A stretch of DNA of 57,743 nt from Pseudomonadales bacterium (GTDB lineage Bacteria; Pseudomonadota; Gammaproteobacteria; Pseudomonadales; Ketobacteraceae), in contig PAPM01000031.1 in assembly GCA_002708905.1 (NCBI GenBank), forward strand, positions 1-57,743, written 5' to 3'. This document shows positions 45,527 to 54,219 of this stretch, piece by piece. Position 1 is the stretch's first letter; each line of letters opens with the position of its first letter. The notes under the pieces were generated by a model, which did no database searches, was not told the DNA's origin, and saw only the letters and a program-made list of their open reading frames with translations. The translations under genes and the position numbers were made by a program.

Positions 45527-46696
45527 ATGCAGAAGTTACCCCGCGATAAGAACAACGACTATACCGTCGAAATGGCGCAGCAGCGGCGTCAGGTGGTGAC
45601 CTCGGAAACCGGGGCCAGCCTGCAGCACGTGGGGTCTTATTCCTTTGATCCGGCGGTGTTGCCGGGCAATATTGAGAACTTTTCCGGCGTGGCCCAAATT
45701 CCTCTGGGCTTCGCCGGCCCGGTGTTGGTAAATGGGGAGCATGCCCAAGGGCAATTCTATGTGCCCATGGCTACCTCGGAAGGCACGCTGCTGGCCAGTT
45801 ACAGCCGAGGAATGCGTCTGACCCGGGAAGCCGGTGGTATCAAAACCACCGTCATCGACGATGCCATGCAGCGGGCGCCCGTATTTGTGTTTGAGGATGC
45901 CCGCGCGGCCCTGCGCTTCGGCCAATGGGTGGAGGAAAACTTCGAAGCCATCAAAGCCAAGGCGGAAGAAACCACATCTTCCGGTAAGCTGCGCAACATC
46001 GAGCAGTATGCGGTAGCAAAAATGCGTTGGTTGCGTTTCAACTTTACCTGTGGCGACGCGGCGGGCCAAAACATGGTGAGCAAAGCCACCCGTCATGCCT
46101 GCATGTGGATGATTGACCAGGGCATTCCCGGCTTGGAAAACTTTACCCTGGCCGCTAACTTCGATACGGATAAAAAGCATTCCTTTGTCAACAGCCTGCA
46201 CACCCGCGGCAAGCGTGCGGTGGCGGAAGTTACCCTGCCGGCAAAGCTGGTACAGGACATCATGCACACGACCCCGGAAGACCTGTTCCGCCAGCGCCAG
46301 TATTCCAATATGGGAGCCTTGATGGCGGGCTCAGTGTGTAACGGGGCCCACTATGCCAACGGTATCACTGCCATGTTCATTGCCTGTGGGCAGGATGTGG
46401 CAAACGTGGCGGAGTCTTCGGCCGGTTTTAATTACAGCGAAATCACGCCGGAAGGGGACTACTACTTCTCTACCACGATTCCTTCCTTGGTGGTGGCAAC
46501 CTATGGTGGTGGAACCGGCTTGCCCACCCAGAAAGAATGCCTGGATGTGTTGGGTTGTTATGGCAAAGGTGGGGTGTATAAATTCGCGGAGATAGTGGCC
46601 GCCACGGTGCTCTGCGGTGAGCTGTCCCTGGCCGCAGCCATTGTGGCGGATGAGTGGGTGTCCAGCCACGATACCTACGGACGTAACCGTCCTTAA
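45527..46696 (+). CDS. Hydroxymethylglutaryl-CoA reductase
   Basis: A 389-residue HMG-CoA reductase, which interconverts HMG-CoA and mevalonate with NAD(P)H. Segments match the catalytic core: ENFSGVAQIPLGFAGPV, the E85 motif PMATSEGTLLAS, the lysine motif GDAAGQNMVSKAT, the aspartate motif CGQDVANVAES and the C-terminal histidine in SSHDTYGRN. Length and motifs look class I-like. The enzyme is uncommon in gammaproteobacteria, which normally make isoprenoids by the MEP route. No other mevalonate-pathway gene is in the window. A 42-base copy of its 3' part lies at 49095-49136. Confidence 0.9.
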   Translation: MQKLPRDKNNDYTVEMAQQRRQVVTSETGASLQHVGSYSFDPAVLPGNIENFSGVAQIPLGFAGPVLVNGEHAQGQFYVPMATSEGTLLASYSRGMRLTREAGGIKTTVIDDAMQRAPVFVFEDARAALRFGQWVEENFEAIKAKAEETTSSGKLRNIEQYAVAKMRWLRFNFTCGDAAGQNMVSKATRHACMWMIDQGIPGLENFTLAANFDTDKKHSFVNSLHTRGKRAVAEVTLPAKLVQDIMHTTPEDLFRQRQYSNMGALMAGSVCNGAHYANGITAMFIACGQDVANVAESSAGFNYSEITPEGDYYFSTTIPSLVVATYGGGTGLPTQKECLDVLGCYGKGGVYKFAEIVAATVLCGELSLAAAIVADEWVSSHDTYGRNRP

Positions 46697-46707
46697 TCTT
46701 TCATGGC

Positions 46708-46757
46708 CCTGCATTGCCAGCTCGTGTTGGTAATGCAGGCGGTAGTATTCTTCTATT
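46708..46757 (+). terminator. Possible terminator after HMG-CoA reductase
   Basis: CCTGCATT (46708-46715) pairs with AATGCAGG (46732-46739), extended by a CCA/TGG pair, and a T-rich stretch follows after 15 bases. It lies between two convergent genes. Confidence 0.45.
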
Positions 46758-46761
46758 TTAA

Positions 46762-49068
46762 TTAATCACTAAGCTCAGCGAATAAAAGATCGTTCTGAAG
46801 CTTGATATCGTTTGGTGCCATTGCGGCAGCTTTTTTCAGTAAACTTATGCCTCGTTCTCTATACCCACTTTTTAACAGCGCAACACCGTAGGTATGGATG
46901 ATTTGCCAACTGTCAGGCTCCAGGGTATAAGCTCTTTCTGCAAATTTCAGGGCCCGTGGGTCATCAATTTCAATATAACGCCACGCCAGGTTATTCAATA
47001 TCAATGGTTGATCTGGAGAGATGCGTATCAATGTCTCGTACTGCTCCATTGCCATCGAGAAGTCTTTTCTTTCATCATATGCGAATTCTGCCAGGGCCAA
47101 GATAACGGCAGTACTCTCAGGATGCTTTTCAAAAGCATACTCCAGAAGAGTGCGGGCTTCATTCGGTTTGTTCTCAGCAATATCGAGTTTGGCTAACCCT
47201 AACAATATGTTTACGTTGTCGGGAGCAAGCCCGATTGCTTCGTTATAAGATTCTCTTGCTTGATTATAATTGCCAGTTGCATGGTGGCACATGGCCTTGA
47301 GTAATAGCGCTTTCCAATTATCCGGGGAAATTGCTAACGATTTACTGATATTTTCATTTGCAGCAACAAAGTCTCTTTGTTGGTATAGTTTTAGGGCGTC
47401 TCTCAGATAAAGTGTACTTTCGATTTGTAAAGCAATGTCGATGCCGTTTTCAGATCTATTGAGTTTTTGAATAATGGCATGGACATTGTCGCTGCTGCCG
47501 TGTCTGAGCTCTATTTCCGCGAGTATGGCCAGGCCATAAATGCTGTCTGGGTCCTTGTTGAACACCCTTTGCAAAGCGAATCGGGCATCGTTTGTTCTAT
47601 TTTGCAGAATGTCCAGAAGCGCCAACTGAACAGCAGGTTGCGTGTCATTAGGCCTAATATCCTCGGCTGTTACAAACGCCCGGCGGGCTCGAATGTAGTC
47701 ACCCTGCGCTTTCTTGAGCCAACCCATCAACATATAAGCTTCCCAGTTTCTCTGCTCCTCATCAATGATGGTGTCCAGAAGCTCCTCCGCCTGAAGGTAT
47801 TCGTTGTTTATCATTAATGCGCGCGCCAAAACCAAATTGTCTTTATTGTAGTTGTCGCTTGTCGGAATTATTTCTTGCAGCTTTTTTATGGCGTCTGCAG
47901 TCTCGTTATGAAAAAGATCGTCTATCGCAAGGCGGGTCGTATATTCAAAACCGATTTGTTCGCCTTCCTTGAATAAATTCTCAGCATACGGGTAAAAAGT
48001 AAAAGGAACGGCTACTAATCCAAATACGGCAGCGTATATGCTCAGTTTGGAATCGCGTGGTTTAATGCCATCCTCCGGTTGTGGATGATTCAGACTTGCA
48101 TGAGCTTTGTCTTTTTCACCTAATGAATGGCCAATATAAAAAATGATAACTAAACCAATTGCGAAAATTATCCAGCCAGTAACTGAAATTAGCAGTGGGT
48201 CAGGATCGCCATTACTAATATATTGGTAGTAACTTATGATTACCCATATTCTAAATGAATTTAGAGTTATACAGAAAATACATGAGCAGATAACAAAAAT
48301 GATCTTTGTATGAATGTTCTTGAAATAGAGGTACGAAAAGAGGGTCGATATGGTTAAAGTGGCTAGTAAGTAGGATAACCCGCTACCTTGAGGGCCTACG
48401 TCCCATCTTCTACTCTCAGTTTGGATGAAGGTTAGTTCTTTCGTGATTTCTAATCCACTGGCCAGTAATAGCCCGGAAGAAAATTCCGCCGAGAAAACCA
48501 TTAGTAGATTTTTAATAAACGGGTCAAAGGGTATAGAAAAAAATAGGAAAGCGAGCGGAAACAAAATTGATTTTGCGATTTCTGCGCCGAGGAATATTGG
48601 AACCGATAAAAGTATGATGCTGAGAGTTAAATAGTCCTGAAGTGTCGGAAGGTCTTTCGTTCCGCAAAATACCCATGCTATAGATGCAAAGAATACAGCG
48701 ACAAACCAGATGTAACTGCTTCTTGGTCTTATTTCTTTTAATTCACTACGTTTTAGCCATATCAAGTAACCGGATATTAACAGAATCAAAGGGCCGTGAG
48801 AAAAGTTATCATCACTTAGCCAAGATCCTACGATACGGCTTACGGAACCCCCAAAAGCAAAACATACGACTACGATGTAGATGCATAGAAGTGAAATCTT
48901 CTTTATCCAGGGGTTATTGCTAAAAGCGGACAGCATTGTTTTGACAATCATATTAATTGCAAGTCTGATTATATTTGGTAAATGGCCAGTAACTCGGCTA
49001 GATAAATATGTTGATTGATATCGAATAAACACTAAACACTGCGAGTTATCAAGGTTATTCAACATCAA
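46762..49068 (-). CDS. Exosortase-like membrane protein fused to TPR repeats, catalytic residues missing
   Basis: A 768-residue protein. Residues about 55-330 match the exosortase (EpsH-like) fold: DDNFSHGPLILLISGYLIW, SIPFDP, WDV then GSGLSYLLATL, N270-S-F-R273 and GWIIF. In active exosortases the motif is ACSG; here it is QGSG, with G228 (codon GGT at 48385-48387) in place of the nucleophile Cys. The usual His a few residues before GW is also absent, while R273 is kept. Residues about 380-765 are TPR repeats. The gene is clearly richer in A and T than its neighbours. No PEP-CTERM target was seen. Starts at M40 or M45 are also possible. Confidence 0.8.
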   Translation of the reverse strand: MMLNNLDNSQCLVFIRYQSTYLSSRVTGHLPNIIRLAINMIVKTMLSAFSNNPWIKKISLLCIYIVVVCFAFGGSVSRIVGSWLSDDNFSHGPLILLISGYLIWLKRSELKEIRPRSSYIWFVAVFFASIAWVFCGTKDLPTLQDYLTLSIILLSVPIFLGAEIAKSILFPLAFLFFSIPFDPFIKNLLMVFSAEFSSGLLLASGLEITKELTFIQTESRRWDVGPQGSGLSYLLATLTISTLFSYLYFKNIHTKIIFVICSCIFCITLNSFRIWVIISYYQYISNGDPDPLLISVTGWIIFAIGLVIIFYIGHSLGEKDKAHASLNHPQPEDGIKPRDSKLSIYAAVFGLVAVPFTFYPYAENLFKEGEQIGFEYTTRLAIDDLFHNETADAIKKLQEIIPTSDNYNKDNLVLARALMINNEYLQAEELLDTIIDEEQRNWEAYMLMGWLKKAQGDYIRARRAFVTAEDIRPNDTQPAVQLALLDILQNRTNDARFALQRVFNKDPDSIYGLAILAEIELRHGSSDNVHAIIQKLNRSENGIDIALQIESTLYLRDALKLYQQRDFVAANENISKSLAISPDNWKALLLKAMCHHATGNYNQARESYNEAIGLAPDNVNILLGLAKLDIAENKPNEARTLLEYAFEKHPESTAVILALAEFAYDERKDFSMAMEQYETLIRISPDQPLILNNLAWRYIEIDDPRALKFAERAYTLEPDSWQIIHTYGVALLKSGYRERGISLLKKAAAMAPNDIKLQNDLLFAELSD

Positions 49069-49094
49069 TATTTAAAATACCCTTTAACGGGCAA

Positions 49095-49136
49095 TATGGT
49101 AAAGGCGGGGTGTATGAATTCGCTGAGATCGTGGCC
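49095..49136 (+). pseudogene. Remnant of a second HMG-CoA reductase 3' end
   Basis: Fourteen codons read YGKGGVYEFAEIVA, against YGKGGVYKFAEIVA encoded at 46559-46600 in the intact gene. Of 42 bases 37 match, and four of the five differences are silent. The remnant runs into TTAATC, which forms the stop of the reverse-strand gene at 49137. The intact reductase also ends in CCTTAATCTT. Confidence 0.85.
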
Positions 49137-50345
49137 TTAATCTTCTTTGCGTTGGGATCTTTGAGCAGCGGTGTACTCTTCCAATTGGTCCACCAGTTGT
49201 TCCAGTAGGGTTTTGGGCCCGTCCTTGTTATCCTGATTTGCCAGCTCCTGCTGGCGATCCAGACGGGATTGGCGGGCCATGTTGATCTGCTGCATCAGGT
49301 TGTCCAGGTCCTGGGTATCTGATGCTTCCTCTTGGGGGATGTTATCGCTGGGGGCGGCGAAAGCACGTTCCAAACGTTGTTCAGCCAGGGGATCACGATT
49401 GGTAAGGTCAATCTGTTGTGTGCTGCCCACGGAACCGTCGTTGCGAATGAAGATACCAGTGGCGCGGGCCATTCCCCGTTCCTGATTCAGGTGATCAGTG
49501 ATACGGAAGGGGGTGGCAACAGATTCGACGCTGATGGCGGCGATGTCGAAGTCGGTCAGTTTGCGCAGGGCGTCATTGCCTTCACTGTCCTTTTCAAAGA
49601 TCTGCAGTTGGGAGAAAACGCTGTCGCCGGAATCGATAAAACCATTGCCGTCTTCATCCAATGCGGCCAGCTCGGCAAAACCATCCCCGGATTCGGCACC
49701 GAACAGTTCGCTGCCACTGTTTATGATGCCATCGCCATTTTTGTCCCAGGCCAGGAAGCCGCTGCCGGTGCCGGTAAACGACACCATCTCATCAACACCG
49801 TCACTATTCTGGTCAAATGCATAGGCCTGGTCGCTGAAGTTATTGAAGCCGCCGCCATAATTGATAATCAATGGGTCCGTGCGACCGGAGATTCGCTCAG
49901 CATATTCCCCCTGTGCAAGCTCCAATATGAAATTACTGCCGCTGCTGGCCGAAAACTGAAACTGAATGGCTTCGTCATCGCAAGTCTGTACCGTTCCATT
50001 AATCGTTACCTGGGTAAACTGACTTTCCTGATAACGATGGTAGAAACTGGACGTCACAATGCCCGTTGTAGCGTTTTCGCTGAGCTCATTAAAAACGACT
50101 TTGCTGTTATAAAAGCGGGTAAATTGTGCCTGCTCACTCAACTGTTGTTGATAGGTGGTGGTGCCGTCGCTGGAGTAGAGATTGATAGATTGCCATTGGT
50201 TTGAATTGAGGAAAATGTGGGTATCGCTTCCGGAATCTGTGATCGAGGGATTATCTGGGGTATTGGCATTGGTCCGTTCGGAAACCTGCTGTAATTGCCT
50301 GCTGTGCTGCGCATTGAAGGACAGACAGGATTCGCTGATCTTCAC
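49137..50345 (-). CDS. Calcium-loop (EF-hand/VCBS-like) protein of unknown function
   Basis: A 402-residue protein without a clear signal peptide. Residues about 170-245 hold three acidic loops of the D-x-[DN]-x-[DN]-G type: DQNSDGVDE, DKNGDGIINSGSELFG and DEDGNGFIDSGD. These are typical of calcium-binding repeats in secreted or surface proteins. The C-terminal third is charged and helical, with many Gln. The family is seen in Pseudomonas- and Marinobacter-like genomes but has no known role. It may be exported without a cleavable signal, which is inference. Its stop touches the HMG-CoA reductase remnant. Confidence 0.6.
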   Translation of the reverse strand: MKISESCLSFNAQHSRQLQQVSERTNANTPDNPSITDSGSDTHIFLNSNQWQSINLYSSDGTTTYQQQLSEQAQFTRFYNSKVVFNELSENATTGIVTSSFYHRYQESQFTQVTINGTVQTCDDEAIQFQFSASSGSNFILELAQGEYAERISGRTDPLIINYGGGFNNFSDQAYAFDQNSDGVDEMVSFTGTGSGFLAWDKNGDGIINSGSELFGAESGDGFAELAALDEDGNGFIDSGDSVFSQLQIFEKDSEGNDALRKLTDFDIAAISVESVATPFRITDHLNQERGMARATGIFIRNDGSVGSTQQIDLTNRDPLAEQRLERAFAAPSDNIPQEEASDTQDLDNLMQQINMARQSRLDRQQELANQDNKDGPKTLLEQLVDQLEEYTAAQRSQRKED

Positions 50346-50562
50346 AATCTACTCCAACCTAATTTGGTTTTACCAGAACTGACAATGAGTATGGTATTCA
50401 CTGTGCCATCACTATGGTATCGGCCTGGAGCTGACGCCCTTTAAGTTAAAAAAGATCTGTAACCCGCTCCCTGAAATGGACGTTGGATATATGGGTATCG
50501 CTGCATCCGAGACGTCTCACCTGGTTACCCTGCAGTGAAATCCTTGCCGATGTCAGAAACAT

Positions 50563-52920
50563 CTATATGTTGGCCACAGGAATCAATAACTCACGTCGTT
50601 TTTGTTCCCGCCGTGCCTGCCGCTTGCCTTGCCAGATAAGAAAGCCAAAGACCAGCCCGGTTACAACCAGCATGCTGCCTACCCACAATATGGAACGGCC
50701 AGGATGTTGTGACAGGGTAGCGAGCTGAAAATAAATTACCGCGCTGCCATAGCCCAAGGTCAAACTCCAAACCAGAGTAAAGGCTGCCCAGAAACCATTC
50801 AGCTCCTTATAAATGGCACCGAAGGTGGCAACGCAGGGCGCATAGAGAAGAATGAACAGCAGATAGGCGAAGGCACCGGCGCTTCCTGCAAACAACAGGC
50901 GCATTGAGCCCAGTGTGGAAAGGCTCACGGCCTGGGCTTGGGCTGCATCTGTTTCATCCGCCACGTTTCCTACGCTTACTCCCAGGGGATCAGTCAGTTG
51001 ATCCAGCAAGGCGATGAGGTTGGCGGGGATGGTGTACCAGGCTGCTATCAGTGCGTGGCCCAGTTGAAAGGGCGTGTCGTCGCTGTCGGCAGCGGTGTTC
51101 ATGTCTGTGTACAGCGCGTCCAGAGTACCCACTACTACCTCCTTCGCAAACAGTCCGGTAAAAATGCCCACGGTGGCGGGCCAGTTATCCGGTTCCATAC
51201 CCATGGGCTCGAACAGGGGTGTAATGGTTTTACCAATGGCCGAGATAACGGACTGCCCGCTGTTCTGGTGGCCGAAACTGCCATCTGTCCCTATGGAGTT
51301 GAGCACGTTCAACACCAGCACAACACAGACGATGGCTTTTCCCGCCCGCACCATAAAACCCTGCAAGCGCTGCCAGGTACGGATGCTCAGGTTTTTTAAT
51401 GTGGGAATATGATAGGCGGGCAGTTCCATGATGAAGGGTGATAGTGGCCCCGGCATCAACGCGCGTCGAACCACAAAGGCAGACAGAATCGCCAGGGTGA
51501 TACCGATGATGTACAACAGGAACACGACGTTCTGTCCGTTGTGGGGAAAGAAAGCCGCCGCAAACAGCGCGTACACGGTCAGGCGGGCACCGCAGGACAT
51601 GAAGGGCGCCATGATGATGGCCACCAGGCGGTCGTTATGATGCTCGAGCGTGCGCGCGGCCATCACGCTGGGCACATTGCAACCGAAGCCAACGATCAAC
51701 GGTACAAAGGCTTTTCCCGGCAGACCCACACTGCGCATCACCCGATCCACAATAAACGCGGCCCGCGCCATGTAGCCGGAATCCTCCAAAAACGATAAGC
51801 AGAAAAACAGCCCGGCGATCACCGGAATGAACGATGCCACCAGCTCTACACCACCACCCAGGCCGTCTGCGAGAAGGGTGATGAGCCATTCCGGCAAATG
51901 CAATGTGGTGAGCAAAACTCTCAAGCCGTCCACAAACAGCGCAGCCGCAACACCATCGAAAAAATCCACAAAGGCATTGCCCACGTTGATGCTGAGCATA
52001 AACATCAAATACATCACACCCAGGAACAGGGGTATCCCCAGATAACGATTCAGGAACAATCTATCCAGCCACTCAGACACATTCAGATGTGAAGTCGTGT
52101 GCCGGGTTACGCTCGCACACACCACTTGGTTAATCCAGTCATACCGACTTTGCACCATGGCTTGATCCAGACTCTGTTGCAGTGCCTGTTCCAGCTCGGC
52201 GATGGTTGCATCGATGTCGCCCTGTTCTTCTGCGCTGAAATATTTCAGCGCCCCCGCATCCTGTTCCAGGGCCGCCACCGCCAACAGGTGATGGTTGAAA
52301 TTCTGGTGACTGCGCCCGGCCGCCTGGGAGGCGATGGCTTCAATGGCCTGTTCCACAGCCTGTGGGTAATGAAACGGGCGTATGGGGCAATGGGGCTTGG
52401 CCTCCATGTTGGTGATCACATCCAGCAGGCTGCCCATGCCGTCTTCTTTGCTGGCAATAATGGGAACCACCGGGCAACCCAATTCCTGGGACAGGGCAAA
52501 AGGATCGATATGAATACCATTCTGGTGAGCCACATCCGTCATATTGAGGGCCACCACCAATGGCAGTGAGGCATCCAACAATTGCGTGGTGAGATACAGA
52601 TTGCGCTCAAGGTTGGAAGCGTCGACGATGTTGAGCAGCAGGTTGGCCTGGCCGGAGAAAATAAAGCTTTGTGCAATTTGCTCGTCGAGGGAAGTGTCAT
52701 CCGCACCGACATGCAGGGAGTAGGTGCCCGGCAGGTCCACCAGTTCATACTGGTGATCCCCATGCTGGAAGTGACCGGTTTTGCGTTCCACGGTAACGCC
52801 GGGCCAATTACCGACGCGCTGGCGGGAGCCGGTGAGGGCATTGAACAGGGTGGTTTTACCGCAGTTGGGATTACCCACCAGGCCGATGGTAAATCCAGTG
52901 CTGAATGCAGGCGCGCTCAT
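50563..52920 (-). CDS. feoB: Ferrous iron transport protein FeoB
   Basis: A 785-residue ferrous iron transporter with an N-terminal GTPase and a polytopic membrane domain. G-protein motifs are GNPNCGKTTLFN (16-27), G2 WPGVTVERK, G3 DLPGTYSL and G4 NMTD. The membrane part has two Gate-type repeats with the conserved GFGCNVPSVMAARTLE core and FVPLIVGF. It works with FeoA, whose stop its start overlaps by four bases. No FeoC was found in the 217 bases after it. Confidence 0.96.
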   Translation of the reverse strand: MSAPAFSTGFTIGLVGNPNCGKTTLFNALTGSRQRVGNWPGVTVERKTGHFQHGDHQYELVDLPGTYSLHVGADDTSLDEQIAQSFIFSGQANLLLNIVDASNLERNLYLTTQLLDASLPLVVALNMTDVAHQNGIHIDPFALSQELGCPVVPIIASKEDGMGSLLDVITNMEAKPHCPIRPFHYPQAVEQAIEAIASQAAGRSHQNFNHHLLAVAALEQDAGALKYFSAEEQGDIDATIAELEQALQQSLDQAMVQSRYDWINQVVCASVTRHTTSHLNVSEWLDRLFLNRYLGIPLFLGVMYLMFMLSINVGNAFVDFFDGVAAALFVDGLRVLLTTLHLPEWLITLLADGLGGGVELVASFIPVIAGLFFCLSFLEDSGYMARAAFIVDRVMRSVGLPGKAFVPLIVGFGCNVPSVMAARTLEHHNDRLVAIIMAPFMSCGARLTVYALFAAAFFPHNGQNVVFLLYIIGITLAILSAFVVRRALMPGPLSPFIMELPAYHIPTLKNLSIRTWQRLQGFMVRAGKAIVCVVLVLNVLNSIGTDGSFGHQNSGQSVISAIGKTITPLFEPMGMEPDNWPATVGIFTGLFAKEVVVGTLDALYTDMNTAADSDDTPFQLGHALIAAWYTIPANLIALLDQLTDPLGVSVGNVADETDAAQAQAVSLSTLGSMRLLFAGSAGAFAYLLFILLYAPCVATFGAIYKELNGFWAAFTLVWSLTLGYGSAVIYFQLATLSQHPGRSILWVGSMLVVTGLVFGFLIWQGKRQARREQKRRELLIPVANI

Positions 52921-53361: not shown

Positions 53362-54219
53362 GTGAGTACGAATTATGGTCAGGGTGAGCACTACCGAAAG
53401 ATTGCATCGGCCATTGAGTATTGTGTGGATCACCGGGCCGATCAGCCGGGTTTGGCGGAATTATCCAGCGAACTCGGGTTAAGCGAATTCCATCTGCAGC
53501 GCCTGTTCTCGGAATGGGTGGGGGTCTCACCCAAACAATTTCTCAAGTTCCTCACCAAGCAGGAGGCCAAGCGTCGCCTGCCTGCACAATCGGTGGAGGA
53601 GACGGCATTGGAGGTGGGGTTAAGTGGCAGCAGCCGCCTGCACGATCTGATGGTGACCTGTGAGGCGGTGACACCCGGTCAGGTCCGGCAACAGGGTGAA
53701 GGTTTGGCGATTACCTATGGCATGATTGATACACCATTCGGTAGTGGATTGTTGGCGCAAACGGAAAAGGGTATCTGCAAGCTGGGCTTTTATGATGTGG
53801 CAACAGAGCGGGAGCAGCTGCTGACCGAATTGAAATCAGAATGGCCGAAAGCAGATTTTCAACGTGACGACCAACAGGCAACGGTAACAGCCCACAGGGT
53901 ATTTGGACGCTTGCACATGGGTGTAGCGCAAGATCCGCAACGATTGCACCTGTTGATGAAAGGCAGCCCCTTTCAATTGAAAGTCTGGGAAGCACTGTTG
54001 GCCATTCCGGAAGGAGAGGTACGTTCCTATCAACAGGTAGCGGATGCCATCCAAGAGCCCACCGCCGTGCGTGCGGTGGCCAGCGCCATTGCCCGCAATC
54101 ATATCGGCTACCTGATTCCCTGTCATCGGGTCATCAGGGCTACCGGCGAATTCAGTCAGTATCGTTGGGGCGTCACGCGCAAGCAGGCGATGATCGGTTG
54201 GGAAGCGTGCCGGCGATAA
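53362..54219 (+). CDS. AraC-type helix-turn-helix fused to methylated-DNA cysteine methyltransferase
   Basis: A 285-residue Ada-like protein. Residues 10-110 form an AraC-family DNA-binding domain (LAELSSELGLSEFHLQRLF, ALEVGLSGSSRL). Residues about 120-285 form the Ogt/AGT domain with the acceptor C254 in IPCHRV and the ARNHIGYLIPCHRV segment. The protein removes alkyl groups from O6-methylguanine and may sense DNA damage. The N-terminal zinc Cys domain of true Ada, which takes methyl from phosphotriesters, is absent, so how it would be activated is unclear. The start is GTG. Confidence 0.9.
   Translation: MSTNYGQGEHYRKIASAIEYCVDHRADQPGLAELSSELGLSEFHLQRLFSEWVGVSPKQFLKFLTKQEAKRRLPAQSVEETALEVGLSGSSRLHDLMVTCEAVTPGQVRQQGEGLAITYGMIDTPFGSGLLAQTEKGICKLGFYDVATEREQLLTELKSEWPKADFQRDDQQATVTAHRVFGRLHMGVAQDPQRLHLLMKGSPFQLKVWEALLAIPEGEVRSYQQVADAIQEPTAVRAVASAIARNHIGYLIPCHRVIRATGEFSQYRWGVTRKQAMIGWEACRR

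Follow-up and report, generated by a model that had tools for sequence, protein, structure and literature searches.

Can an exosortase fold be of use to a cell after the residues that should make it an enzyme are gone? Exosortases are membrane enzymes that trim and anchor surface proteins in bacteria, and the XrtA system pairs with PEP-CTERM proteins. The window, the whole stretch of 57,743 nucleotides analysed here (contig PAPM01000031.1 of a Pseudomonadales bacterium), contains a reading frame in which a membrane half of exosortase type, with a glycine at the position of the nucleophile, is followed by a solenoid of TPR repeats. Its features are as follows.

46762..49068, minus strand: whole open reading frame, 768 amino acids, opening with TTG at 49068; Met40 or Met45 are possible true starts.
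48127..48873, minus strand: exosortase (PF09721) domain, residues 66-314, from the Pfam profile match.
48385..48387, minus strand: codon 228, GGT (Gly), at the catalytic Cys column of the exosortase alignment.
48250..48252, minus strand: codon 273 (Arg), the retained Arg of Asn-x-x-Arg in the exosortase alignment.
48187..48189, minus strand: codon 294 (Ile), at the catalytic His column of the exosortase alignment.
47989..48045, minus strand: hydrophobic segment, residues 342-360, a putative extra transmembrane helix between the exosortase and TPR halves, from hydropathy, with a predicted topology.
46765..47901, minus strand: TPR solenoid, residues 390-768, about 11 helical hairpins, from Pfam, a model and fold comparison.
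46720..49140, no strand, limits approximate: AT-rich islet in the GC profile.

The frame runs through 768 codons without a stop or a frameshift; the earlier note had described it as intact, and so it is, on the minus strand. Residues 1-45 are coded by DNA at 31% GC and may be untranslated, with Met40 or Met45 as the true start. Positions 46500-50600, scanned with a simple promoter search, showed no site upstream of the gene, and three sites overall where 7.1 would be expected by chance.

The exosortase half passes the cut-offs of PF09721 (140.2 bits, 1e-40, cut-off 25.7) and TIGR02602 (136.5 bits, cut-off 105.55), and residues 60-315 match the XrtA model TIGR03109 at 174.9 bits (2.1e-51), under the cut-off of 208. 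On these profile scores, the protein can be assigned to the exosortase/EpsH family by fold membership. The fold and topology of the membrane half rest on the profile match and on hydropathy, which reveals several hydrophobic segments where the family expectation is eight transmembrane helices; the model has a pLDDT below 50 in this region. A profile of the exosortase half found no match among solved structures at E ≤ 0.01.

To locate the active-site residues, the protein was aligned with 46 other exosortase reading frames, two from its own genome and the rest from related genomes. Column counts use 43 of the 46; two XrtE proteins and one contig-edge fragment were left out, and these three also have the Cys and the His in the alignment. 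Ten columns are identical in 43/43: Trp83, His91, Gly161, Cys228, Gly230, Asn270, Arg273, His294, Gly298 and Trp299. The 768-residue protein retains eight of them, the exceptions being Gly228 for the catalytic Cys and Ile294 for the catalytic His. Codon reading and alignment thus bear out the earlier note on both the glycine (GGT) at the nucleophile position and the missing His before Gly-Trp, and its view that the exosortase signature is otherwise kept agrees with the eight invariants and the PF09721 match. Read as motifs, Cys-x-Gly has lost its Cys and kept Gly230, Asn-x-x-Arg is present (Asn270, Arg273), and His-x-x-x-Gly has lost its His and kept Gly298. In excerpts of the 2006 paper, these three motifs contain all six perfectly conserved residues, and the Cys, Arg and His of exosortases are compared with the sortase triad (PMC1569441); an excerpt on archaeosortase ArtA describes an active-site Cys and a similar triad (PMC11980579). 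Set against the motifs as excerpted from the former, two of the three proposed catalytic residues are lost while four of the six conserved residues are retained. Only the Cys and the His proposed as catalytic are missing, while the other eight invariants remain, a pattern that fits a split of the exosortase invariants into catalytic and structural ones. The loss would be expected to abolish catalysis.

Neither a sequencing error nor a recent mutation of codon 228 can account for the glycine: the His is lost as well, the near-invariant positions 212, 226, 232 and 289 are also changed, and the end branch in the tree is very long. The alignment also rules out another Cys at the catalytic column. 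Cys261, Cys263 and Cys266 lie in the next hydrophobic segment, preceding Asn270-x-x-Arg273, in columns that are mostly Phe/Leu, Ile/Val and Pro in other exosortases. The two findings that might have overturned the earlier reading are thus absent, since the searches turned up no homologue of the same architecture that has the Cys, and the alignment puts no other Cys at the site. It is highly unlikely that the protein is an active enzyme with another residue, such as one of these three cysteines or Ser229, as its nucleophile. Arg273, Asn270, Gly230 and His91 are kept and the cysteines sit 7-12 residues before Arg273, as such an enzyme might have it; however, the His is gone too, the cysteines are in a hydrophobic segment and in columns that are not Cys in relatives, and the genome has no PEP-CTERM match. 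Ser229, for its part, corresponds to the normal serine of the CSG motif, found in 42/46 of the others, which have the Cys too.

At the average residue retention of 28%, the chance of keeping eight of ten invariants is about 0.001, which suggests that constraint acted on the exosortase scaffold for much of the time it was diverging and says nothing of the period after the catalytic loss.

In the C-terminal half, PF14559 (TPR_19) matches six stretches at 1.2e-32, and a single-sequence AlphaFold2 model has 22 helices, or about 11 hairpins, over residues 390-766. Its block-mean pLDDT is 72-94 for residues 411-768, 61-65 for 391-410 and below 50 for 1-389. The TPR half is therefore as well kept as had been noted, with hairpins modelled mostly at good confidence. 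Its closest solved folds by Foldseek are superhelical TPRs, for example O-GlcNAc transferase, and it matches none of the 46 other exosortase reading frames at E ≤ 0.1. The best-scoring NCBIfam model for the whole protein is TIGR02917, PrsT, the TPR protein of the PEP-CTERM/XrtA system, with its best stretch in the TPR half; however, the score of 193.4 bits is below the cut-off of 312.2, and here the TPRs are fused to a membrane domain. Of 14 control genomes, 13 also have a match to TIGR02917 (one of them over the cut-off), so the match means little beyond TPR; the protein's own genome has no match to it over the cut-off. The Foldseek matches include a bacterial TPR solenoid, LbcA, the partner of the CtpA protease in Pseudomonas aeruginosa (7rqf at rank 30, 8sxf at rank 43). 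LbcA suggests what TPRs could do next to a protease, although it is a separate lipoprotein, the likeness is one of TPR fold alone, and eukaryotic and designed TPR proteins rank above it.

Comparison with XrtA-type enzymes defines the architecture. Like XrtA/EpsH (TIGR03109, TIGR02602, PF09721), the membrane half matches nearly the whole model and retains Trp83, His91, Asn270, Arg273 and Gly298-Trp299; unlike XrtA, the protein has neither the Cys nor the His, falls short of the XrtA cut-off, and has TPRs where XrtA has EpsI/DUF3485. That domain is C-terminal to the exosortase part in all 12 XrtA/XrtD-type proteins scanned at full length (L068, L057 (by TIGR02914) and ten more, drawn from the 46), and is missing from the 25 of 40 NCBIfam and 25 of 36 Pfam matches listed for the 768-residue protein. 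In the two XrtE proteins of the same genome the C-terminal part is a CPBP protease. The TPRs thus appear to occupy the EpsI/DUF3485 place, probably through a swap of EpsI for TPRs. Given the usual topology for the exosortase half, and with segment 342-360 spanning the membrane, they would be periplasmic.

These features are consistent with a horizontally acquired, catalytically dead exosortase fold that anchors a periplasmic TPR scaffold and has a non-enzymatic role, the likeliest reading in our view, though at about even odds. A catalytically dead gene of the exosortase family would have been acquired horizontally; the membrane half would serve as an anchor and might still bind another membrane protein or the hydrophobic tail of a partner; and the TPR solenoid, in the place of EpsI/DUF3485, would dock other proteins. 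In favour of such a scaffold function, which we infer, are the eight retained invariants, the open 768-codon frame, and a TPR half that folds in a model from its single sequence. Against it, there is no homologue of the same architecture to show selection after the loss of the site, neither a partner nor a neighbouring exopolysaccharide or sorting gene was recognised, and the promoter scan gave no site upstream. A more specific version is rather doubtful: a dedicated non-enzymatic exosortase whose fold persists as a receptor in the membrane, binding hydrophobic tails or partner proteins, and whose EpsI was swapped for a periplasmic TPR solenoid, the whole working outside any PEP-CTERM system. 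Should the protein be functional, the exosortase fold would prove able to work without catalysis.

The partners available in the host bear on this. Besides the gene itself, the genome has two exosortases over the PF09721 cut-off, both of the XrtE type (TIGR04162) with Cys and His, encoded as XrtE/CPBP fusions (L035:9209-10834 and L036:9520-11139) on contigs other than that of the exosortase/TPR gene. PF07589 (PEP-CTERM) has no match in the genome (G000) at E ≤ 1. Five congeners searched in the same way served as a control; all five were positive and four were over the cut-off, with eight matches over the cut-off in G010, seven in G011, five in G012, one in G013 (only with neighbours in frame) and none in G014. 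XrtA was seen in G010 (L020, 294.2 bits to TIGR03109), and XrtA-type sequences in G012 (L021) and G011 (L031, at a contig edge). As a side observation, PEP-CTERM matches over the cut-off range from none to eight inside one genus, together with the exosortase types seen.

The check for an active exosortase and PEP-CTERM proteins thus gave two XrtE proteins with Cys and His for the first, and no match for the second. Since the only other exosortases over the cut-off are the two XrtE proteins and PEP-CTERM matches are absent, a role of the 768-residue protein in PEP-CTERM sorting is unlikely in this host, and the docking for sorting machinery proposed earlier is not borne out in its PEP-CTERM version. 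A singleton gene whose genome lacks PEP-CTERM matches agrees with the rule that XrtA and PEP-CTERM proteins co-occur.

The protein could instead dock on the host's VPEID-CTERM/XrtE system and hold VPEID-tailed proteins, or XrtE itself, without cutting. The two XrtE genes with Cys and His would provide such a system, and next to one of them (L035:10944-11237) lies a small protein whose C-terminal tail, read by eye, is of the VPEID type. We regard this as improbable, however: the exosortase/TPR gene is on a different contig from either XrtE, the tree separates XrtE widely from the XrtA-like half, and no NCBIfam model at E ≤ 0.1 fits the VPEID-tailed protein. The XrtE gene at L036 adjoins sugar-transferase-like genes, also read by eye.

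No second protein with exosortase and TPR halves was found in the family, order, class and phylum samples, in plasmids or phages, or in genome contigs. The samples, own genome included, comprised 15 genomes of the family (E ≤ 1e-10), 293 of the order (1e-20), 369 of the class (1e-32), 398 of the phylum (1e-36) and again 390 of the order (1e-36, overlapping the first), with at most two or three candidates per genome scored in both order samples and in the class and phylum samples. The empty answer from 11 further genomes of the order of G630 (1e-40, own genome outside) shows nothing, because this limit is stricter than G630's known match of 9.3e-39. Matches apart from the gene itself cover one half only: the exosortases among them share 20-31% identity and the TPR stretches 24-39%. 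Neither the plasmids (11 records, exosortase half only) nor the phages held a second member, and a single-protein scan of genome contigs gave 20 stretches, none of them confirmed. A motif scan of the genome contigs, with the Cys codon replaced by any codon not beginning with T, gave one match, which is not an exosortase; the same motif with TGY recovers 39 of the 46 aligned exosortase loci, and the scan is blind to other spacings and to Phe, Tyr, Trp, Leu (TTR) or Ser (TCN) in place of Cys. Viral contigs are no control, since they held no exosortase of either kind, and the genome collections may omit near relatives of the host genome. A tree sets the protein apart from a starred set of 37 other exosortases, at the end of a very long branch (2.83) that leaves a weakly supported fork (90/36); because of the long branches, its place is unsure.

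With no relative of the same architecture found, a conserved pseudo-enzyme branch is not supported, and on present data the protein appears to be a singleton. The earlier note had proposed such a branch, and that part lacks support, whereas its catalytic loss in an exosortase scaffold with TPRs stands, and amounts to more than one base, the His being gone too. A literature search, judged by titles and abstract openings and with thin coverage of subscription journals, found no exosortase described as a pseudoenzyme or as catalytically inactive; absence from print is not thereby established.

The composition of the gene sets it apart from its surroundings. It has 41% GC and a GC3 of 0.417, compared with 0.516-0.573 and 0.598-0.69 in eight neighbours, and 500-base windows give 0.38-0.47 GC within the gene and mostly 0.49-0.59 in the flanks, with one at 0.454. 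The five congeners have no orthologue; the best match (55.5 bits) is an ordinary exosortase in G010. Its AT-rich composition and the lack of an orthologue in congeners make horizontal acquisition probable; a gene present in the ancestor and lost repeatedly would be a less simple account.

The main rival reading is a functionless relic, that is, a foreign gene, dead or dying catalytically, that is unbroken so far and has no role in the host. The foreign composition, the lack of a congener orthologue and of relatives, a genome without XrtA or a PEP-CTERM match, the very long branch and the lack of a promoter-like site upstream all agree with this possibility, which we hold only tentatively. On the other hand, a relic would not readily explain 768 codons without a stop or frameshift, a well-kept TPR consensus or the eight invariants, and we give a functional scaffold a slight edge over a relic.

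Around the gene, sequences read by eye include what we take to be an HMG-CoA reductase, an EF-hand-like protein and FeoB; among the neighbours, mostly read in this way, no exopolysaccharide or sorting gene was recognised. Four congener loci with the HMG-CoA-reductase-like gene contain no match to the exosortase/TPR gene. In G014 about 90 bases lie between this gene and the next one, the counterpart of the window gene at 53362; in G011 about 560 bases separate the two; and in G010 the FeoB-like gene follows after about 540 bases. G012 gave no match to the DNA query. A 402-residue protein with EF-hand-like loops (49137-50345, minus strand) is encoded on the same strand as the exosortase-like gene, 68 bases upstream of it; it has no family over the cut-off (weak Pfam matches below it, none in a second search) and was not found at the four congener loci compared. 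An imperfect direct repeat of 35 nt (77%) occurs near both sides of the AT-rich gene, at 46708-46742 and 49232-49266, and may be due to chance.
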